Shown here one piece after another: positions 54,986-63,008 of a stretch of DNA of 64,000 nt (position 1 is its first letter; every line of letters begins with the position of its first letter). The position numbers were made by a program, and so were the translations under genes. The stretch is taken from NCBI GenBank assembly GCA_021731145.1, contig JAKFXX010000031.1, positions 1-64,000 on the forward strand. The letters are read 5' to 3'. The notes under the pieces were generated by a model, which saw nothing but the letters and a program-made list of their open reading frames with translations, made no database searches and had not been told where the DNA came from. The stretch comes from Gammaproteobacteria bacterium (GTDB taxonomy: Bacteria; Pseudomonadota; Gammaproteobacteria; Ga0077554; Ga007554).

Positions 54986-56278
54986 CTACAAGCTTATCCA
55001 GTGATATGAAAGGTAGGTTTTTTTACCTTGCTGAATCAGAACGTTTGGGAATTCCCGAACCGTAACAATATTATCCATGCGATCACGCAATTCGATTTTA
55101 ACCGTGTAACTGCCAGAACCGAGTGGAAGCCGCGCCAAATAAATATCTTGCGGCAGGGTGGACCAGGCGCGCGTGTCTGCCTGCTCGGTTATAAAGCCGA
55201 TGATATCAACCACCAAGGCTAATGCGTCATTATTATTTTTCCTTGACTGCACTGATATCTGCTGTTTTGCGACGACACGCGCCACGCTACGGGCTGTTAT
55301 CGCAGGCATCTGATCGGCAAGATTCTCCGTGGCAATCGCACCGATGTTTTCCACCCTTTCCCCTTCAACCCCGCCATCTGCGGCATTCACACGCATTTTG
55401 CTTACCAAGGACGGGCGCGGCTGGTAATAGGGTAAGGAAATACGCAGCAAGCCACCCCGCGATGGGTTCGGCATCACCACACTATTCTCCCTTTTAATCG
55501 GCGCAAGGCCGTTGTTCAGGACAAAAATAAGCTCCCCTTCCGGATTACCCTGATTTTTATCCTGCCAATCCTGAAGGGCGAACTCACGCTGGTATTTATC
55601 CTGCTCTTCCCCAAGATCCAGCTTATGCGCCAGTCTCAGCAAATCCATTTTCAGAAACTCCGGCACATCAATCCGGTATTTTGATTTATTTTGGAGATAA
55701 GCCTCATAGGCCTTGCGGTAGGCGATCATTGCATCGCTCCATTCCCCAAGGTCCTCATAAATGATGCCGGTGAGATAGCGGGGAAACGCTTCGCCAAGAT
55801 GCCTGCCGGATTTCTCCCCCAGCTCGCGCAGGTTGAGATCAATCTGTAGCGCCTCTACCCGCGCTCCGTCTCGCTCTCCCAACTGAAGATAATTGAGTGC
55901 TTTATAGACATGCATCATTACCTGTTCGAACGGTTCACCCACATAACTGCGGGTGCTGTCATTGATGAGAAACGATGTGCCTTGTTCGCGCAGGCTCAGC
56001 GCGGACAGCGCCCCCATGCGCTGCTGCGCCGCTTCAAATGATGCTGTGCTGGCTTGGTAATCACCGGCAATGCGCAGCAACATGGCCTTGTTTAGCAGAT
56101 AGAGCACCTCATCTGTACGGGAGCCCTTCTGCTTGTCCAGCGCCCGCAACGCCAGCTCCGGCTGCTGGTTTGCCAGATTTTGTTCGACGACCCTGAACGT
56201 TTCGCTGTGCGTGGCGCAACCCGTCAACCATAGGGCATAAAACGCGGCCAGGCAACGCAGCAACCTATTCTGGCTCAT
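54986..56278 (-). CDS. COG3014-type outer-membrane lipoprotein (TPR-like)
   Basis: A 430-residue lipoprotein; the leader ends in ALWLTGCATH (lipobox LTGC). The mature part has TPR-like helical pairs, e.g. QPELALRALDKQKGSRTDEV and RIAGDYQASTASFEAAQQRM, then GEPFEQVMMHVYKALNYLQL and a C-terminal beta-rich part. This arrangement fits the COG3014 family, often encoded beside LpoB- and LPP20-like lipoproteins. No enzymatic motif. It begins 5 bp downstream of the LpoB-like gene and the operon is tightly packed. Confidence 0.72.
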   Translation of the reverse strand: MSQNRLLRCLAAFYALWLTGCATHSETFRVVEQNLANQQPELALRALDKQKGSRTDEVLYLLNKAMLLRIAGDYQASTASFEAAQQRMGALSALSLREQGTSFLINDSTRSYVGEPFEQVMMHVYKALNYLQLGERDGARVEALQIDLNLRELGEKSGRHLGEAFPRYLTGIIYEDLGEWSDAMIAYRKAYEAYLQNKSKYRIDVPEFLKMDLLRLAHKLDLGEEQDKYQREFALQDWQDKNQGNPEGELIFVLNNGLAPIKRENSVVMPNPSRGGLLRISLPYYQPRPSLVSKMRVNAADGGVEGERVENIGAIATENLADQMPAITARSVARVVAKQQISVQSRKNNNDALALVVDIIGFITEQADTRAWSTLPQDIYLARLPLGSGSYTVKIELRDRMDNIVTVREFPNVLIQQGKKTYLSYHWISL

Positions 56279-56283
56279 ACCTG

Positions 56284-56907
56284 TCAGAAGCGTAGCTTGC
56301 TACGCTCGACAAGTTTTTTGATCTTCTTTTGCCCCACCCATGCGATGCGATTGTCGGCCAAACTTATCAGCGACAAATCCACCTGATAATAGCGCACCTG
56401 AGTTGATCCGGAGGCATCGATAATAGTATTGATGGCCCCTTTCAGCATGTAATCCGCGCCTTGCTCCATGCCCATCGCTTTGCGGGTATCTTCGCGGGCA
56501 TTCAGATCTTGATCCTTGCGTTCTTCACGGATTTCATTGCGTTCCCCACGTGAAGCGACAAATTGCACTTTGCCCGAATTGATCAAAACCCGACCCATAT
56601 CGGATATAAATGTTTGCGTGTTGATGTGTTCGTGGCTGAGATTGCGCACGTCACCCACAATAAGAGCGGGCGGGGCCTTGTGCGTGCTGCTGTAAGCAGA
56701 CAACCAGGGGGCCGACAACACATCCTTGATCATCTCTTCCGACACCAGGCGTGAATCGGTATCGTTCCAGGCGCCGCTCAGGTCTTTCACCTCATCAACC
56801 TGCAGGCGCTCCACTTTGGTGGCGCAGCCGCTGCTCAACACAGCAAACAGCCCTGCCATCAATGCGGCACACACTGCGCGTGGCATACCAATGGTAAAAC
56901 ACATCAT
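56284..56907 (-). CDS. LpoB-like penicillin-binding-protein activator lipoprotein
   Basis: A 207-residue lipoprotein with the lipobox LSSGCATK. The mature domain has DLSGAWNDTDSRLVSEEMIK, a short DGR...VISDMGR region and a GADYMLKGAINTII segment followed by a final YQVDLSLISLADNRIAWVGQ strand. These are the marks of the LpoB/PBP-activator family. In E. coli LpoB activates PBP1b from the outer membrane. The relationship to PBP1b here is inferred. It overlaps the 56904 gene by 4 bp. Confidence 0.8.
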   Translation of the reverse strand: MMCFTIGMPRAVCAALMAGLFAVLSSGCATKVERLQVDEVKDLSGAWNDTDSRLVSEEMIKDVLSAPWLSAYSSTHKAPPALIVGDVRNLSHEHINTQTFISDMGRVLINSGKVQFVASRGERNEIREERKDQDLNAREDTRKAMGMEQGADYMLKGAINTIIDASGSTQVRYYQVDLSLISLADNRIAWVGQKKIKKLVERSKLRF

Positions 56908-57464
56908 TTTCTATCCCTCGCAACCCGGTCAAACACGTTATCACTCTCTTTTTCGAAATAGGCACGCAGGCCCGCATTCATTTCATCCATGTTTTTAACG
57001 ATTTCCTTGGCCTGCTTCATATCCATCTCGGCCAGTGAAAAGAGATTGCTGGTCTTTTTATCACGCCAGCGCGCAATGATTTTCGAGCCATTCAACATTA
57101 CCCTGGTTGTACTTTTGATCTGCCGCGACACCGCCTCCTCATTCATGCCCTTCCCTGCGGAAGCCATGAAATCATTGGACACAACATCCATCATTGCCGA
57201 AAGAGCACGGGCAACTTCGGCACGGGCGCGGTCATCGGCGGTGGCGCCTTGCAGGGAAATATCGCCTAACGGCGATGCCATCCCCACACCGTGGATCAAC
57301 CGGCCATTATCATCCTTCAATACCTGCGTGCCCTTATTCACCCAGTCTGGCGCCCCTTTGAGGCCCAGATCACTTTCGACCATGGTTTTCCCGCCGCATG
57401 CCGCCAGCAGGCAACCAACACCCAGCAAAAATACCATGCGGCTAAACGAATAACGCAGTTTCAT
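56904..57464 (-). CDS. LPP20-like lipoprotein, paralogue 2
   Basis: A 186-residue lipoprotein with leader MKLRYSFSRMVFLLGVGCLL ending at the lipobox LLAAC. The mature part starts GGKTMVESDLGLKGAPDWVN, then GVGMASPLGDISLQGATADD, RARAEVARALSAMMD and a terminal helical pair. GGAGAAAAAC precedes the chosen start. It shares this layout with the next gene, so the pair are tandem paralogues. The overlap with the LpoB-like gene suggests coupled translation. Confidence 0.78.
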   Translation of the reverse strand: MKLRYSFSRMVFLLGVGCLLAACGGKTMVESDLGLKGAPDWVNKGTQVLKDDNGRLIHGVGMASPLGDISLQGATADDRARAEVARALSAMMDVVSNDFMASAGKGMNEEAVSRQIKSTTRVMLNGSKIIARWRDKKTSNLFSLAEMDMKQAKEIVKNMDEMNAGLRAYFEKESDNVFDRVARDRK

Positions 57465-57508
57465 GTTTTTCTCCATAGACCCCATACATTAACGGCCAAT
57501 AAACAAAT

Positions 57509-58207
57509 TTACTTATCACCCCTGGCGGCAACCACGTTATCGATCTCCGTCTCGATATAGCCGCGCAAATGGGTATCCAATCCCTCCGCCTGCCTGATCA
57601 TGCCTTTGGCCTGCTTCATATCCAGCTCAGCCAGGGAATACATATAGTTGCTCTGCTCATCACGCCAGCGCGCAACAATCCTCACGCTCTTGAGCATGGC
57701 ACCGGCCGCGCCCTTGATCTGCTGCGCCAGCTCCACTTTGCTCATGACCTTGTCTTCCGGAGCACTGTAATTTTTTGATAGTTTATCCAGCATTGAAGAC
57801 AAAACACGTGCCACCTCGGCGCGGGCACGATCATCGGCGGCAGGGCCCTGCGCAGAGATGCTCCCCAAGGTCGCCGCGCCTATCGGCGGCAGGTCATTGC
57901 GCGTGTTGTTAGGCTGTGGCGCTGGCGAGAGATAACCCCAAGGCATAATCTGCACGGGCGGCAAATTATGCTCATGGGTAGCGAACGGCCTTTGCATCGA
58001 GAGGTCCGCCAAAGAGGCCATCTTTACGCCATGGATCATCCAATGCCCGTCATCTTTCAATGTCCGGGTGCCTTTGATCACCCAGTCAGGCATTCCTTTG
58101 ATGTTCATATTATCGCTGGTCACCAGCGCCTTCCCTGAGCACGCTGCCAACAGGCATCCCGCCGCCAGCAAAAAGACGATGCGAATCACTGAGTGATGCT
58201 GTCTCAT
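57509..58207 (-). CDS. LPP20-like lipoprotein, paralogue 1 (with insertion)
   Basis: A 232-residue lipoprotein, start MRQHHSVIRIVFLLAAGCLL, lipobox LLAACSGK. AGGGGGG lies before the ATG. The mature part (KGMPDWVIKGTRTLKDDG) parallels the next gene, but a Pro/Asn-rich insert of about 45 residues (QIMPWGYLSPAPQPNNTRND) sits between MASLADLSMQ and GSISAQGPAADDRARAEVAR. First gene of the operon. No promoter motif is clear. Divergent from the quinone reductase gene. Confidence 0.78.
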   Translation of the reverse strand: MRQHHSVIRIVFLLAAGCLLAACSGKALVTSDNMNIKGMPDWVIKGTRTLKDDGHWMIHGVKMASLADLSMQRPFATHEHNLPPVQIMPWGYLSPAPQPNNTRNDLPPIGAATLGSISAQGPAADDRARAEVARVLSSMLDKLSKNYSAPEDKVMSKVELAQQIKGAAGAMLKSVRIVARWRDEQSNYMYSLAELDMKQAKGMIRQAEGLDTHLRGYIETEIDNVVAARGDK

Positions 58208-58306
58208 ACCCCCCCCTACGGTCATTTAACCAATATGATGCAACAGGTCACACAACTTGTGTATGCTAAATTACATAAAACTGTCAGTTTTAAGAGAAAC
58301 ATCACC

Positions 58307-59552: not shown

Positions 59553-60140
59553 ATGGCCAAGAAAAAAATACTCATGTTGGTGGGTGATTTTGTAGAAGAC
59601 TACGAGGCAATGGTGCCGTTTCAAATGTTGACCATGGTCGGCCACACCGTCCATACAGCCTGCCCTGGCAAAAAAGGTGGCGAAACCGTGCGCACCGCAA
59701 TCCACGATTTCGAGGGCGACCAAACCTACAGCGAGAAACCCGGCCATAACTTTGCCATCAATTTCGCTTTCGAAGAAATCAACCCGCAGGATTATGACGC
59801 GCTCGTGATCCCTGGAGGGCGTGCGCCTGAATACCTCCGCCTGAATGAACGGGTGCTGGACATCGTGCGACACTTTGCGCAAGCCGACAAACCTATCGCA
59901 TCAATCTGTCACGGCGCGCAGGTGCTCACTGCTGCGGATGTGGTGAGAGGCAAACAATGCATGGCATACCCCGCCGTCAAACCGGAACTGATCCAGGCGG
60001 GCGCCACCTGGGTGGAAACCAACGCAACTTTTTCTAACGCCCATGTGGACGGCAACCTGGTTACCGCCGCAGCCTGGCCCGCCCATCCAGAGTGGATGCG
60101 GAAATTCCTTCAAATACTGGACAGTAGAATCGAGACATAA
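59553..60140 (+). CDS. DJ-1/PfpI family protein
   Basis: A 195-residue protein of the DJ-1/ThiJ/PfpI superfamily. The nucleophilic elbow [14 protein letters not shown] places the reactive Cys near residue 119, with the conserved Glu early in [17 protein letters not shown]. Length and layout match single-domain members that act as glyoxalase/deglycase-like or chaperone proteins; which activity applies is not decidable. AGGAGG lies 7-12 bp before the ATG, a strong site. It is 280 bp upstream of the caspase gene on the same strand. Confidence 0.9.
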
Positions 60141-60420
60141 CCCTAAAAACGGCAGTTGGCTCGGATTACTTGTAGTGGTTGAGGCTTAACGTGGCAGACT
60201 GTGTCGTATCTTGAATGGCGGAGTTGTGCCAGAAGAAAGCGGCCGGAGGTGTCCTCTACGCTGGCCGATCTATTAAAGTTGTTATTATACGTACCCCGGC
60301 TTAGCAAAAGCCTTGCCCACCAAGGAATTGCAAGAGCTATAGTCGGCGCATGGATATCAATCCATATCCTAGCCTCAGTGGTCCGATCAACAACCGTTAT
60401 GTCTACTCAGGTACAACTGT
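60141..60420. other. Non-coding or decayed DNA upstream of the caspase gene
   Basis: It opens with AAAACGGCAGTTGG, a 14-bp word shared with the repeat C arms. Beyond that the sequence shows stop codons in all frames except short stretches, e.g. an ATG frame giving MAELCQKKAAGGVLYAGRSI before a nearby stop. No ribosome-binding site or motif supports a gene. It looks like a remnant of older sequence at the left edge of the AT-rich insert. Confidence 0.5.
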
Positions 60421-61872
60421 ATGCATCGCAAACTAACTGCTCTTGTCATTGGTATATCGAATTATCCCGATGGTAGCACGCTAAAAAATCCCACAAACGA
60501 TGCTGAAGACATGTCCGCCGCGTTAGAACAGCTTGGATTTTTAGTTATAAAAGTCAAAGATGCAGGCGTAGAAGATATTGACCGTGCAGTCGTATCCTTT
60601 CGAGATAATTTGAACAGTAATGACGTTGGACTTTTTTATTTTGCAGGCCACGCAATGCAAGTAAAGGGCGAAAACTACCTTAATGCGGTTGACAGCAACT
60701 TCGATGACGAGATTTCAGCAAAACACTCATCATATCCATTGAATAAAATAATTGAATTGATGGATTCATGCTCGAACAGCACGAATATCATCATTCTCGA
60801 TGCGTGCCGGAACAATCCTTTTGTTCGCTCGTGGAGCCGCGGTCCAGACCAAATAGGGCTAGCATCCGTCTATGCACCTCGTGGAACCTTAATTGCCTTT
60901 GCTACATCGCCAGGAGAGTTAGCAAAAGATGGTGCAGGAAGAAATGGATCTTACACAGAAGCCCTGCTAAAACATCTCAATACACATGACATCCCAATAG
61001 AAGATCTTTTCAAGAGAGTTAGAAACACGCTTAACACGATTACGGGAGGGAAACAAACCTCATGGGAGCACACCTCGCTTGCTGGCGACTTCTACTTCAA
61101 TATTAGCGTTGGAAGAAGTGTTGATATTTACTCGCAGGATGCTATTTCAGACTCATTATTTTCACTCAAGCCATGCAACCCTATTAGAGATGCAATTACA
61201 GCACTGAAGTCTCTAAACTGGTACAGGCAAAATCCAGGACTCGAAAAGATCACCATTCGCGAACTGGATGCTGGGGACGAAAATTCATTGTTTGTCTTAG
61301 GACGCAATATCTACCAAGCCGCCTGCGGAGGGGCCAATTCCGCAAGCGGCTTTATATCAGCTTTCCGCGAAAAGACGGATGGTATGTTGCCGGGAAAAGT
61401 CAGAAGCCTCTTGGACGGAATGCTATTCGAAATTTTTTTCAACTCGAATGGAGAGATCCGAAAAGATTTCAGGATTTCCAAATTCAACGATATATTCAAG
61501 CTAAAAGTCTTTACTGAGTACTCTGCCAGCTTTGAATTTATATCCGAGGTTTTGTTGACCTACCAGAATAGGTTCTATGTTATTCCGGGGAAGTCTCGCG
61601 GCATTGGGGTAGACGTAGTTGCCACACAAAATGAAGATGGCGAGCATCTTATCGAGGGCATTCACTTTGAAGGTTTTAACATCCTTAGGAAATCTAATGA
61701 GGCTGCGTCTTGGCATGACGAAGGGGGTGCATACCCTATTAAGCTAGACGACCTTAAGCAAACCTTGTCCAATGAAATGGTTGTTCCTATTTCGCAACTC
61801 ACAGTGACCACATCATTTGAATCGGATAAGTCGAAAGTTTTATTCCCTTACGGGATGACCGTTAAGAAATAA
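60421..61872 (+). CDS. Caspase-family (peptidase C14) protein with an unrecognised C-terminal half
   Basis: A 483-residue protein. Residues 1-225 form a caspase-like domain. LTALVIGISNYPDGSTLKNP at the start is followed by NDAEDMSAALEQLGF, then the catalytic His77 in FYFAGHAMQVKG and the catalytic Cys129 in IILDACRNNPF. The C-terminal ~260 residues match no family I know: no membrane segment, no TPR, no clear binding motif. They begin near FSLKPCNPIRDAITALKSLN. Bases are visibly AT-rich (23 G/C in 60601-60660, against 41 in 58621-58680). No adjacent cognate gene for a two-gene system is seen. Substrate and trigger are unknown. Confidence 0.85.
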   Translation: MHRKLTALVIGISNYPDGSTLKNPTNDAEDMSAALEQLGFLVIKVKDAGVEDIDRAVVSFRDNLNSNDVGLFYFAGHAMQVKGENYLNAVDSNFDDEISAKHSSYPLNKIIELMDSCSNSTNIIILDACRNNPFVRSWSRGPDQIGLASVYAPRGTLIAFATSPGELAKDGAGRNGSYTEALLKHLNTHDIPIEDLFKRVRNTLNTITGGKQTSWEHTSLAGDFYFNISVGRSVDIYSQDAISDSLFSLKPCNPIRDAITALKSLNWYRQNPGLEKITIRELDAGDENSLFVLGRNIYQAACGGANSASGFISAFREKTDGMLPGKVRSLLDGMLFEIFFNSNGEIRKDFRISKFNDIFKLKVFTEYSASFEFISEVLLTYQNRFYVIPGKSRGIGVDVVATQNEDGEHLIEGIHFEGFNILRKSNEAASWHDEGGAYPIKLDDLKQTLSNEMVVPISQLTVTTSFESDKSKVLFPYGMTVKK

Positions 61873-62024
61873 GACAGAACTCAAACGTTGAACGTCCGCT
61901 TTGGAGGAGATCGACAGACTACTTTGGGTCGATTCCAGCCCTTCTGGGCTAAAGAACATCAGACACTGCCTGTCAGATCAAGTGCTGACTACTACACATT
62001 ACTAACGTCATACCGAGGCACACC

Positions 62025-63008
62025 CTGTCATACCGCGCTCCTTCATGGCTTCCTGGTGGCCATTTACAAACCATATACACAGCCCTGCTTACATCCGCAC
62101 CACGCATCGCCTACAAGCGCGAGCGTTGGGATACGCCGGATGGCGATTTCATTGATGTTGACTGGCTGAATAATTCTGCTTGCGGTCCGTTAGTGGTATT
62201 TTTTCATGGGCTGGAAGGCAGCTCGCAGGGGCATTACGTACGCAGCCTGATGGAAAAATTGCAGCACAACGGCTGGCGTGGAATAGCCGTGAATTTTCGC
62301 GGGTGCAGTGGTGAGCCCAACCGCCTGCCCCGCGCCTATTTCGCCGGGGACAGCGCCGAGATTGATTGGATTATGCGCCGCTTGCGCGCGCAAAATCCTG
62401 ATTCTCTCATTTTTGCGGCCGGTGTATCGCTAGGCGGCAATGCCCTGCTGAAATGGCTGGGTGAACAGGGAGGCAATGCGTGCGGGATTATCAATGCAGC
62501 GGTGACGGTCTCTGCTGCCATGGATCTGCAAGCCACAGGAAACGCTTTGGATAGCGGTGGATTTAATCAGCTTTATGCCGCTCATTTTCTGCGCACACTA
62601 AAGAAAAAAGCATCACAGAAGCTCGAACGGTATCCAACTTTGTTTGACCGTGAGGCACTAAATCACGTCGAAACCTTACGGGCATTTGATGACCTTTTTA
62701 CTGCACCGCTGCATGGCTACAAAAACACCGACGATTACTGGACGAGGGCCAGCAGCAAACCGGGGTTAATCAACGTCCACGTTCCTACATTGCTGATCAA
62801 CGCCCGCAACGATCCCTTCCTGCCGGCATCTGCGTTACCCGGTTTAGAGCAGGTATCGGCCTGTATAACACTGGAATTCCCGGAAGAAGGCGGGCACATG
62901 GGTTTTATTTCCGGGCCTTTTCCCGGCAGACATGCGTGGCTCCCGGGGCGTATTTTAGAGTTTTTCAACCACTCAACTCATTTCTCTTTCTCGCCGCGCG
63001 CCACGTAA
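62025..63008 (+). CDS. YheT-like alpha/beta hydrolase, no AUG start visible
   Basis: A 327-codon frame from 62025. The N-terminus LSYRAPSWLPGGHLQTIYTA matches the family start that carries HLQT, then RERWDTPDGDFIDVDWLNNS and the nucleophile region FAAGVSLGGNALLKWLG, with FHGLEGSSQGHYVRSLM before it. These are YheT-family marks (oxyanion hole and GxSxG-type elbow). No ATG or GTG lies between the in-frame TGA at 61986-61988 and residue HLQT. A CTG at 62025 has GAGG 7 bp upstream. The first GTG (62193) would remove conserved residues. It may use a rare start, or its 5' end may have been replaced. Confidence 0.75.
   Translation: MSYRAPSWLPGGHLQTIYTALLTSAPRIAYKRERWDTPDGDFIDVDWLNNSACGPLVVFFHGLEGSSQGHYVRSLMEKLQHNGWRGIAVNFRGCSGEPNRLPRAYFAGDSAEIDWIMRRLRAQNPDSLIFAAGVSLGGNALLKWLGEQGGNACGIINAAVTVSAAMDLQATGNALDSGGFNQLYAAHFLRTLKKKASQKLERYPTLFDREALNHVETLRAFDDLFTAPLHGYKNTDDYWTRASSKPGLINVHVPTLLINARNDPFLPASALPGLEQVSACITLEFPEEGGHMGFISGPFPGRHAWLPGRILEFFNHSTHFSFSPRAT

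Follow-up and report, generated by a model that had tools for sequence, protein, structure and literature searches.

Caspase-like proteases in bacterial immunity

Caspases are already known in bacterial defence (PMC12799240 and references therein), and several described systems come close to the locus studied here. Canu (CanABC) is a multi-gene immune locus with a MALT1-like caspase, a pro-nuclease, and an Ig-like domain (PMC12799240), and type IV Thoeris is reported (Rousset et al. 2025, cited in the same paper) to have a TIR-activated caspase-like effector. EACC1-associated caspases (NCBIfam NF047832; system 4 of PMC7159879) have an N-terminal caspase domain followed by further C-terminal domains, with a variable C-terminal half and a small membrane partner gene. 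Effector-associated domains (EADs) are non-enzymatic domains, described as small, that different effectors of conflict systems have in common (PMC7159879). Prokaryotic orthocaspases, which like human MALT1 belong to peptidase family C14, are described in PMC6426788 as cleaving after positively charged residues. We compared with these systems a caspase-family gene found in a 64-kb stretch of DNA (64,000 nucleotides, hereafter the window), whose parts are as follows.

60421 to 61872, forward strand: caspase-family protein, 483 residues (ORF call; Pfam PF00656, 3e-34; full-length homologues)
60421 to 61095, forward strand: caspase (peptidase C14) domain, residues 1-225 (Pfam, phmmer, Foldseek)
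60649 to 60651, forward strand: codon CAC of catalytic His77 (aligned with the MALT1 His motif)
60805 to 60807, forward strand: codon TGC of catalytic Cys129 (aligned with the MALT1 Cys motif)
61114 to 61869, forward strand: conserved C-terminal module, residues 232-483, unclassified (AF2 model, fold searches, hhalign)
61165 to 61512, forward strand: helical core of about 115 residues (alignment A5; profile matches)
61588 to 61869, forward strand: C-terminal alpha/beta subdomain, residues about 390-483 (AF2: strands, one helix, strands)

The original prediction of a caspase-like domain with an intact His77/Cys129 dyad was borne out. Residues 6-225 match Pfam Peptidase_C14 (PF00656; E = 3e-34, 119 bits against a cut-off of 21.4), and His77 and Cys129 are unchanged in 26/26 aligned sequences, both aligning with the MALT1 motifs by phmmer. 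Judged by its sequence, the protein is thus a member of the caspase family, with the fold domain and the His-Cys dyad both present; its ATG occupies the same alignment position as the start of nearly all homologues. The nearest solved structure, by sequence and by fold, is human MALT1 paracaspase, which gave the top Foldseek matches to the caspase domain (E = 5e-16; TM 0.80 over the MALT1 caspase domain 3v4o). Two residues, D27 and D127, align with acidic positions of MALT1 that we take to form its acidic S1 pocket, while a third acid is unaligned. This alignment is compatible with a predicted cleavage after positively charged residues.

The catalytic fold and the dyad are common to the window protein, MALT1, and prokaryotic orthocaspases. 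MALT1, however, has Ig-like and death domains, whereas the window protein has neither and instead carries a predicted helical and alpha/beta half; in particular, the Ig-like domain that follows the caspase domain in MALT1-type paracaspases was absent from both the AF2 model and the PDB fold search. As in Canu, a MALT1-like caspase is present in what appears to be an immune locus, but here it is encoded by a single gene with a different C-terminal half and without a nuclease neighbour: the gated nuclease gene found downstream in Canu is absent, and the downstream gene encodes an alpha/beta hydrolase that is conserved where the insert is lacking. The type IV Thoeris effector, as cited above, is alike in its proposed role of immune executioner, but no TIR gene adjoins the window copy (its neighbours encode DJ-1/PfpI and alpha/beta hydrolase proteins) or recurs beside homologues. 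Likewise, the EACC1-associated caspase model scored 62.4 bits, below its cut-off of 140, and in the window family there is no small membrane partner gene and the C-terminal half is constant. The PADLOC model 'caspase' (PDLC02987) matched the ORF with 6.6e-15 over profile positions 3-157 of 453, resembling the caspase part but not the C-terminal half. No curated model searched covers a dispersed single-gene caspase with this C-terminal half, and text searches of open-access literature returned none.

A variable slot holding a foreign gene

We then considered the genomic setting of the gene, which lies in a segment bounded by two conserved flanks.

60237 to 61926, no strand: inserted DNA that forms one of the alleles at a variable slot, with the caspase gene as its sole gene (flank alignment to congeneric genomes)
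59553 to 60140, forward strand: left slot flank, DJ-1/PfpI-family gene, outside the system (Pfam 1.9e-48; orthologues 93-94% identical in the congeneric genomes G002 and G003)
62019 to 63008, forward strand: right slot flank, alpha/beta hydrolase gene, outside the system (Pfam; orthologues 91-94% identical in the congeneric genomes G001-G003)

The low G+C content noted originally was confirmed. The caspase ORF has the lowest GC (43.3%) and GC3 (43.7%) of the 50 ORFs in the window, the remaining 49 having means of 57.9% (sd 3.3) and 66.5% (sd 6.2), respectively; this comparison covers the ORFs of the 64-kb window. By blastn, the left flank DNA is conserved up to window position 60235-60236 in G002 and G003 (G001 has no close orthologue of the DJ-1/PfpI gene), and the right flank DNA is conserved again from 61917-61927 in all three congeners, with flanks about 90% identical. 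An insert had been proposed for positions 60141-62024; the insert itself is upheld by this comparison, but its extent is slightly narrower.

Between the flanks, each of the three congeneric genomes (slot loci L062, L063, and L064) carries different DNA, in every case assigned by PADLOC to a defence system. The allele of G003 is a Type II restriction-modification (R-M) system, comprising a methyltransferase (MTase_II, 2.4e-64) and an HNH restriction enzyme (REase_II, 1e-50); that of G002 is an OLD-family ATPase-TOPRIM (Old, 6.4e-36; OLD-like TOPRIM, 7.9e-17); and that of G001 is a Helicase-DUF2290 pair (PDLC03002, 1054 bits; DUF2290, 7.9e-97). In this genus, the slot next to the alpha/beta hydrolase gene is thus a defence hotspot, with the caspase gene as its fourth allele, and this sharing of a slot with the congeners' anti-phage systems is the strongest argument for the defence role that had been suggested. 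Rather than being conserved in the same spot across the genus with normal base composition, the caspase gene was missing from 7/7 related family genomes searched (the three congeners and four others). Absence from relatives, foreign composition, and a variable slot together show, by sequence comparison, that the gene was acquired horizontally, as first supposed.

Three further observations concern the surroundings. The sequence GTCCGCTTTGG... at the right junction looked like a repeat but has no second copy in the genome, and the idea was rejected. The reading frame and conserved N-terminus of the hydrolase continue upstream of its first ATG/GTG/TTG (62193), and the ATG found at the equivalent site of G002 is missing from the window copy, the start of which would lie upstream of 62193. 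Elsewhere, window positions 54986-58225 hold tandem LPP20/LpoB-type lipoprotein genes with a TPR protein, possibly a duplicated cluster.

A dispersed family and its neighbours

The gene had been called an orphan, which holds locally but not overall, since the whole protein, including a C-terminal half that stays constant, represents a conserved and dispersed family. About 40 homologues, mostly full-length and 34-60% identical, are scattered among Pseudomonadota, Bacteroidota, and Bacillota, whether on a chromosome, a plasmid, or a prophage-like contig. When 84,980 species genomes were scanned, 31 loci came up, the majority full-length, spread over gamma- and alphaproteobacteria, Bacteroidota, Balneolota, Rhodothermota, and Bacillota. 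Plasmid copies occur in Croceicoccus, Agrobacterium, Rhizobium, Edwardsiella, Butyrivibrio, and Vibrio, and seven IMG/VR viral or prophage contigs carry homologues; the named phage genomes searched contained no relatives, and the E. coli genomes searched matched only at IS-element ends. In sampled genomes the family is rare: the full C-terminal half was found in the host's own genome only among 369 genomes of the class, in one more of 398 genomes of the phylum, and in two more (one frame-disrupted) of 385 genomes of another class.

In the tree, the window protein groups with Psychrobacter (100/96), Moraxellaceae copies fall in three separate places, and those of Marinomonas and Oceanospirillum are nearly identical, the latter two patterns indicating transfer. 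Several copies have a GC clearly below that of their own locus, e.g., 0.46 in 0.69 (L014) and 0.31 in 0.55 (L019). Four copies (L020, L032, L071, and L116) look broken by stops or frameshifts, or reflect assembly errors, as expected of costly genes with a fast turnover.

Defence genes adjoin some homologues: Lamassu LmuA/LmuB in two loci (L027 and L028), LeoBC/LeoA in L020, Gabija in L068, a HEC-04-like ATPase in L022, a Type II REase in L010, and, nearby, QatA in L069 (Agrobacterium leguminum plasmid p4), where a second annotated caspase-family gene is convergent to the homologue. The majority of neighbours, however, cannot be recognized as defence genes. With PADLOC at E <= 1e-10, the 101 nearest neighbours matched 102 models and the 49 window ORFs used as a control matched 7; since these counts are of redundant models and not of independent loci, and islands concentrate all kinds of mobile genes, the excess is indicative only. 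Beyond a few small clusters, no partner gene recurred beside the caspase across 35 loci, which suggests that it acts alone or with unlinked partners. A second association is with genes for error-prone polymerases and SRAP: three neighbours matched DNA polymerase III alpha, three matched IMS (ImuB/UmuC/DinB type), and two matched SRAP. From cluster membership, we place these neighbours in L025, L030, L031, and the viral contig L037; gaps to the caspase gene are short and on the same strand in the first three. These four loci are possibly an SOS-linked caspase subgroup.

The C-terminal module and a proposed mode of action

The C-terminal half had been noted to match no nameable family, and searches of Pfam, the PDB, and a library of viral folds indeed gave no match. 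Pfam left it unmatched in the window protein and gave nothing significant in 31 homologous C-termini, and PDB profile searches with either the whole half or the helical core returned nothing significant. AF2 modeled the half alone with high confidence (pLDDT 92.1, pTM 0.90), predicting about ten helices followed by an alpha/beta tail. Foldseek at E <= 0.001 found no fold match to this model in the PDB or BFVD; the best PDB fold match had E = 0.2 and TM 0.2. A housekeeping-family reading of the half was rejected after no such profile, PDB-sequence, or fold match was found, and a match to influenza neuraminidase was dismissed as chance level (E = 0.05).

The module is present in other proteins. 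A 629-aa protein from a Pseudomonas luteola plasmid (L105:7864-9753) consists of a PIN-like domain, so assigned by the record annotation and without a match in the PDB sequence search, followed by the complete C-terminal module; hhalign of the caspase C-terminal half against it gave a probability of 100% (E = 3.6e-41, 247 columns). This fusion gene adjoins an IS5-family element. The helical core alone was found in a protein of about 500 aa in four other genomes (E = 3e-14), and reverse tblastn with the BREX-linked core recovered caspases (E = 5e-6). In G067, the gene for the core protein is flanked by an ORF that, on visual inspection of its sequence, reads as a DNA methylase and by a gene for a RapA/SNF2-like helicase, after which comes one for a PglZ protein; in G266, a PglZ gene lies about 4.4 kb downstream. 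The methylase/SNF2/PglZ layout appears BREX-like, and the 499-aa core protein of L107:5685-7184, encoded inside such a DNA methylase/SNF2 helicase/PglZ operon, is possibly an undescribed extra component. In alignment A5, eleven positions (W19, Q22, G46, R47, N48, Q51, G55, A60, G85, E89, and R99) are invariant over the caspase, PIN-like, and BREX-like operon proteins.

Finding one module attached to executioners of different kinds suggests a regulatory or sensing role for the module, with the N-terminal domain as the acting part. Since the module has no known sensor fold, it is this reuse that argues for C-terminal sensing. We tentatively propose, while giving it somewhat less than an even chance, that the C-terminal half represents a new sensor/regulator module for bacterial immune receptors made of a single protein, with no known fold in the sensing half, in which executioners (caspase or PIN-like nuclease) are swapped and whose core has been recruited into BREX-like systems. 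The original observation that no sensor or effector gene lies alongside is correct for the neighbours, but the missing sensor is plausibly the C-terminal half itself.

On balance, we regard it as probable that the gene encodes a horizontally acquired, single-gene anti-phage protein of the abortive-infection type, in which the C-terminal module would act as sensor/regulator and the paracaspase-type protease would kill. We infer that the protein would be autoinhibited. In the resting cell, the module, i.e., its helical core and alpha/beta tail, would keep the N-terminal paracaspase-like domain inactive; upon infection, it would respond to a cue that stems from the phage or from damage; once activated, the protease would then cleave host or phage proteins, generally or selectively and probably after basic residues; and growth would stop, or the cell would die, ahead of phage release.

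Other explanations have to be weighed against this one. The gene may encode an orthocaspase triggered by DNA damage or stress, i.e., a general programmed-cell-death protease tied to SOS mutagenesis and not to phage sensing, as the polymerase III alpha, IMS, and SRAP neighbours would fit. Such neighbours are, however, missing from most loci, a pattern search of the scanned homologue promoters found no LexA-type boxes, and the window copy occupies a slot where defence systems are exchanged and does not adjoin SOS genes, so that we consider this unlikely; it would also be compatible with the phage reading, as phage attack damages DNA too. Selfish or neutral cargo, such as a plasmid or prophage moron or a toxin-like gene without immune function, would account for the copies on plasmids and prophage-like contigs and for the four that look broken, but hardly for the strong conservation of the dyad and the C-terminal invariants across phyla or for an allele of a defence slot, and is highly improbable.

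Two further explanations concern how the protease is switched on. An unlinked partner could recruit it, with the C-terminal module making homotypic contacts of the sort proposed for EADs, and the sharing of the helical core among caspase, PIN-like, and BREX-like operon proteins is indeed the EAD pattern (PMC7159879). Yet the module, at about 250 aa, is not small as EADs are, the host genome gave a single match and hence no cognate second copy, and no neighbour recurs, which leaves this distinctly unlikely. Alternatively, the C-terminal half could bind a nucleotide signal from an unlinked enzyme, as in type IV Thoeris or CBASS. The TIR-activated effector cited above is a precedent, and a putative ligand site could be built from the conserved G-R-N, E, and R residues; however, no TIR, CD-NTase, or cyclase gene lies beside the window copy or recurs beside homologues, and no known ligand-binding domain matched the module in fold, making this very unlikely.

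The anti-phage reading of a self-contained caspase bears on how such proteases are controlled. The known defence caspase-like proteases that we encountered work within multi-gene systems (CRISPR III-E, gasdermin, Thoeris, and Canu), and a one-gene form that carries its own regulatory half, if true, would be a minimal system for studying the activation of MALT1-like proteases. The module common to the PIN-like protein and the BREX-like operon, in turn, is a handle for finding more immune proteins.
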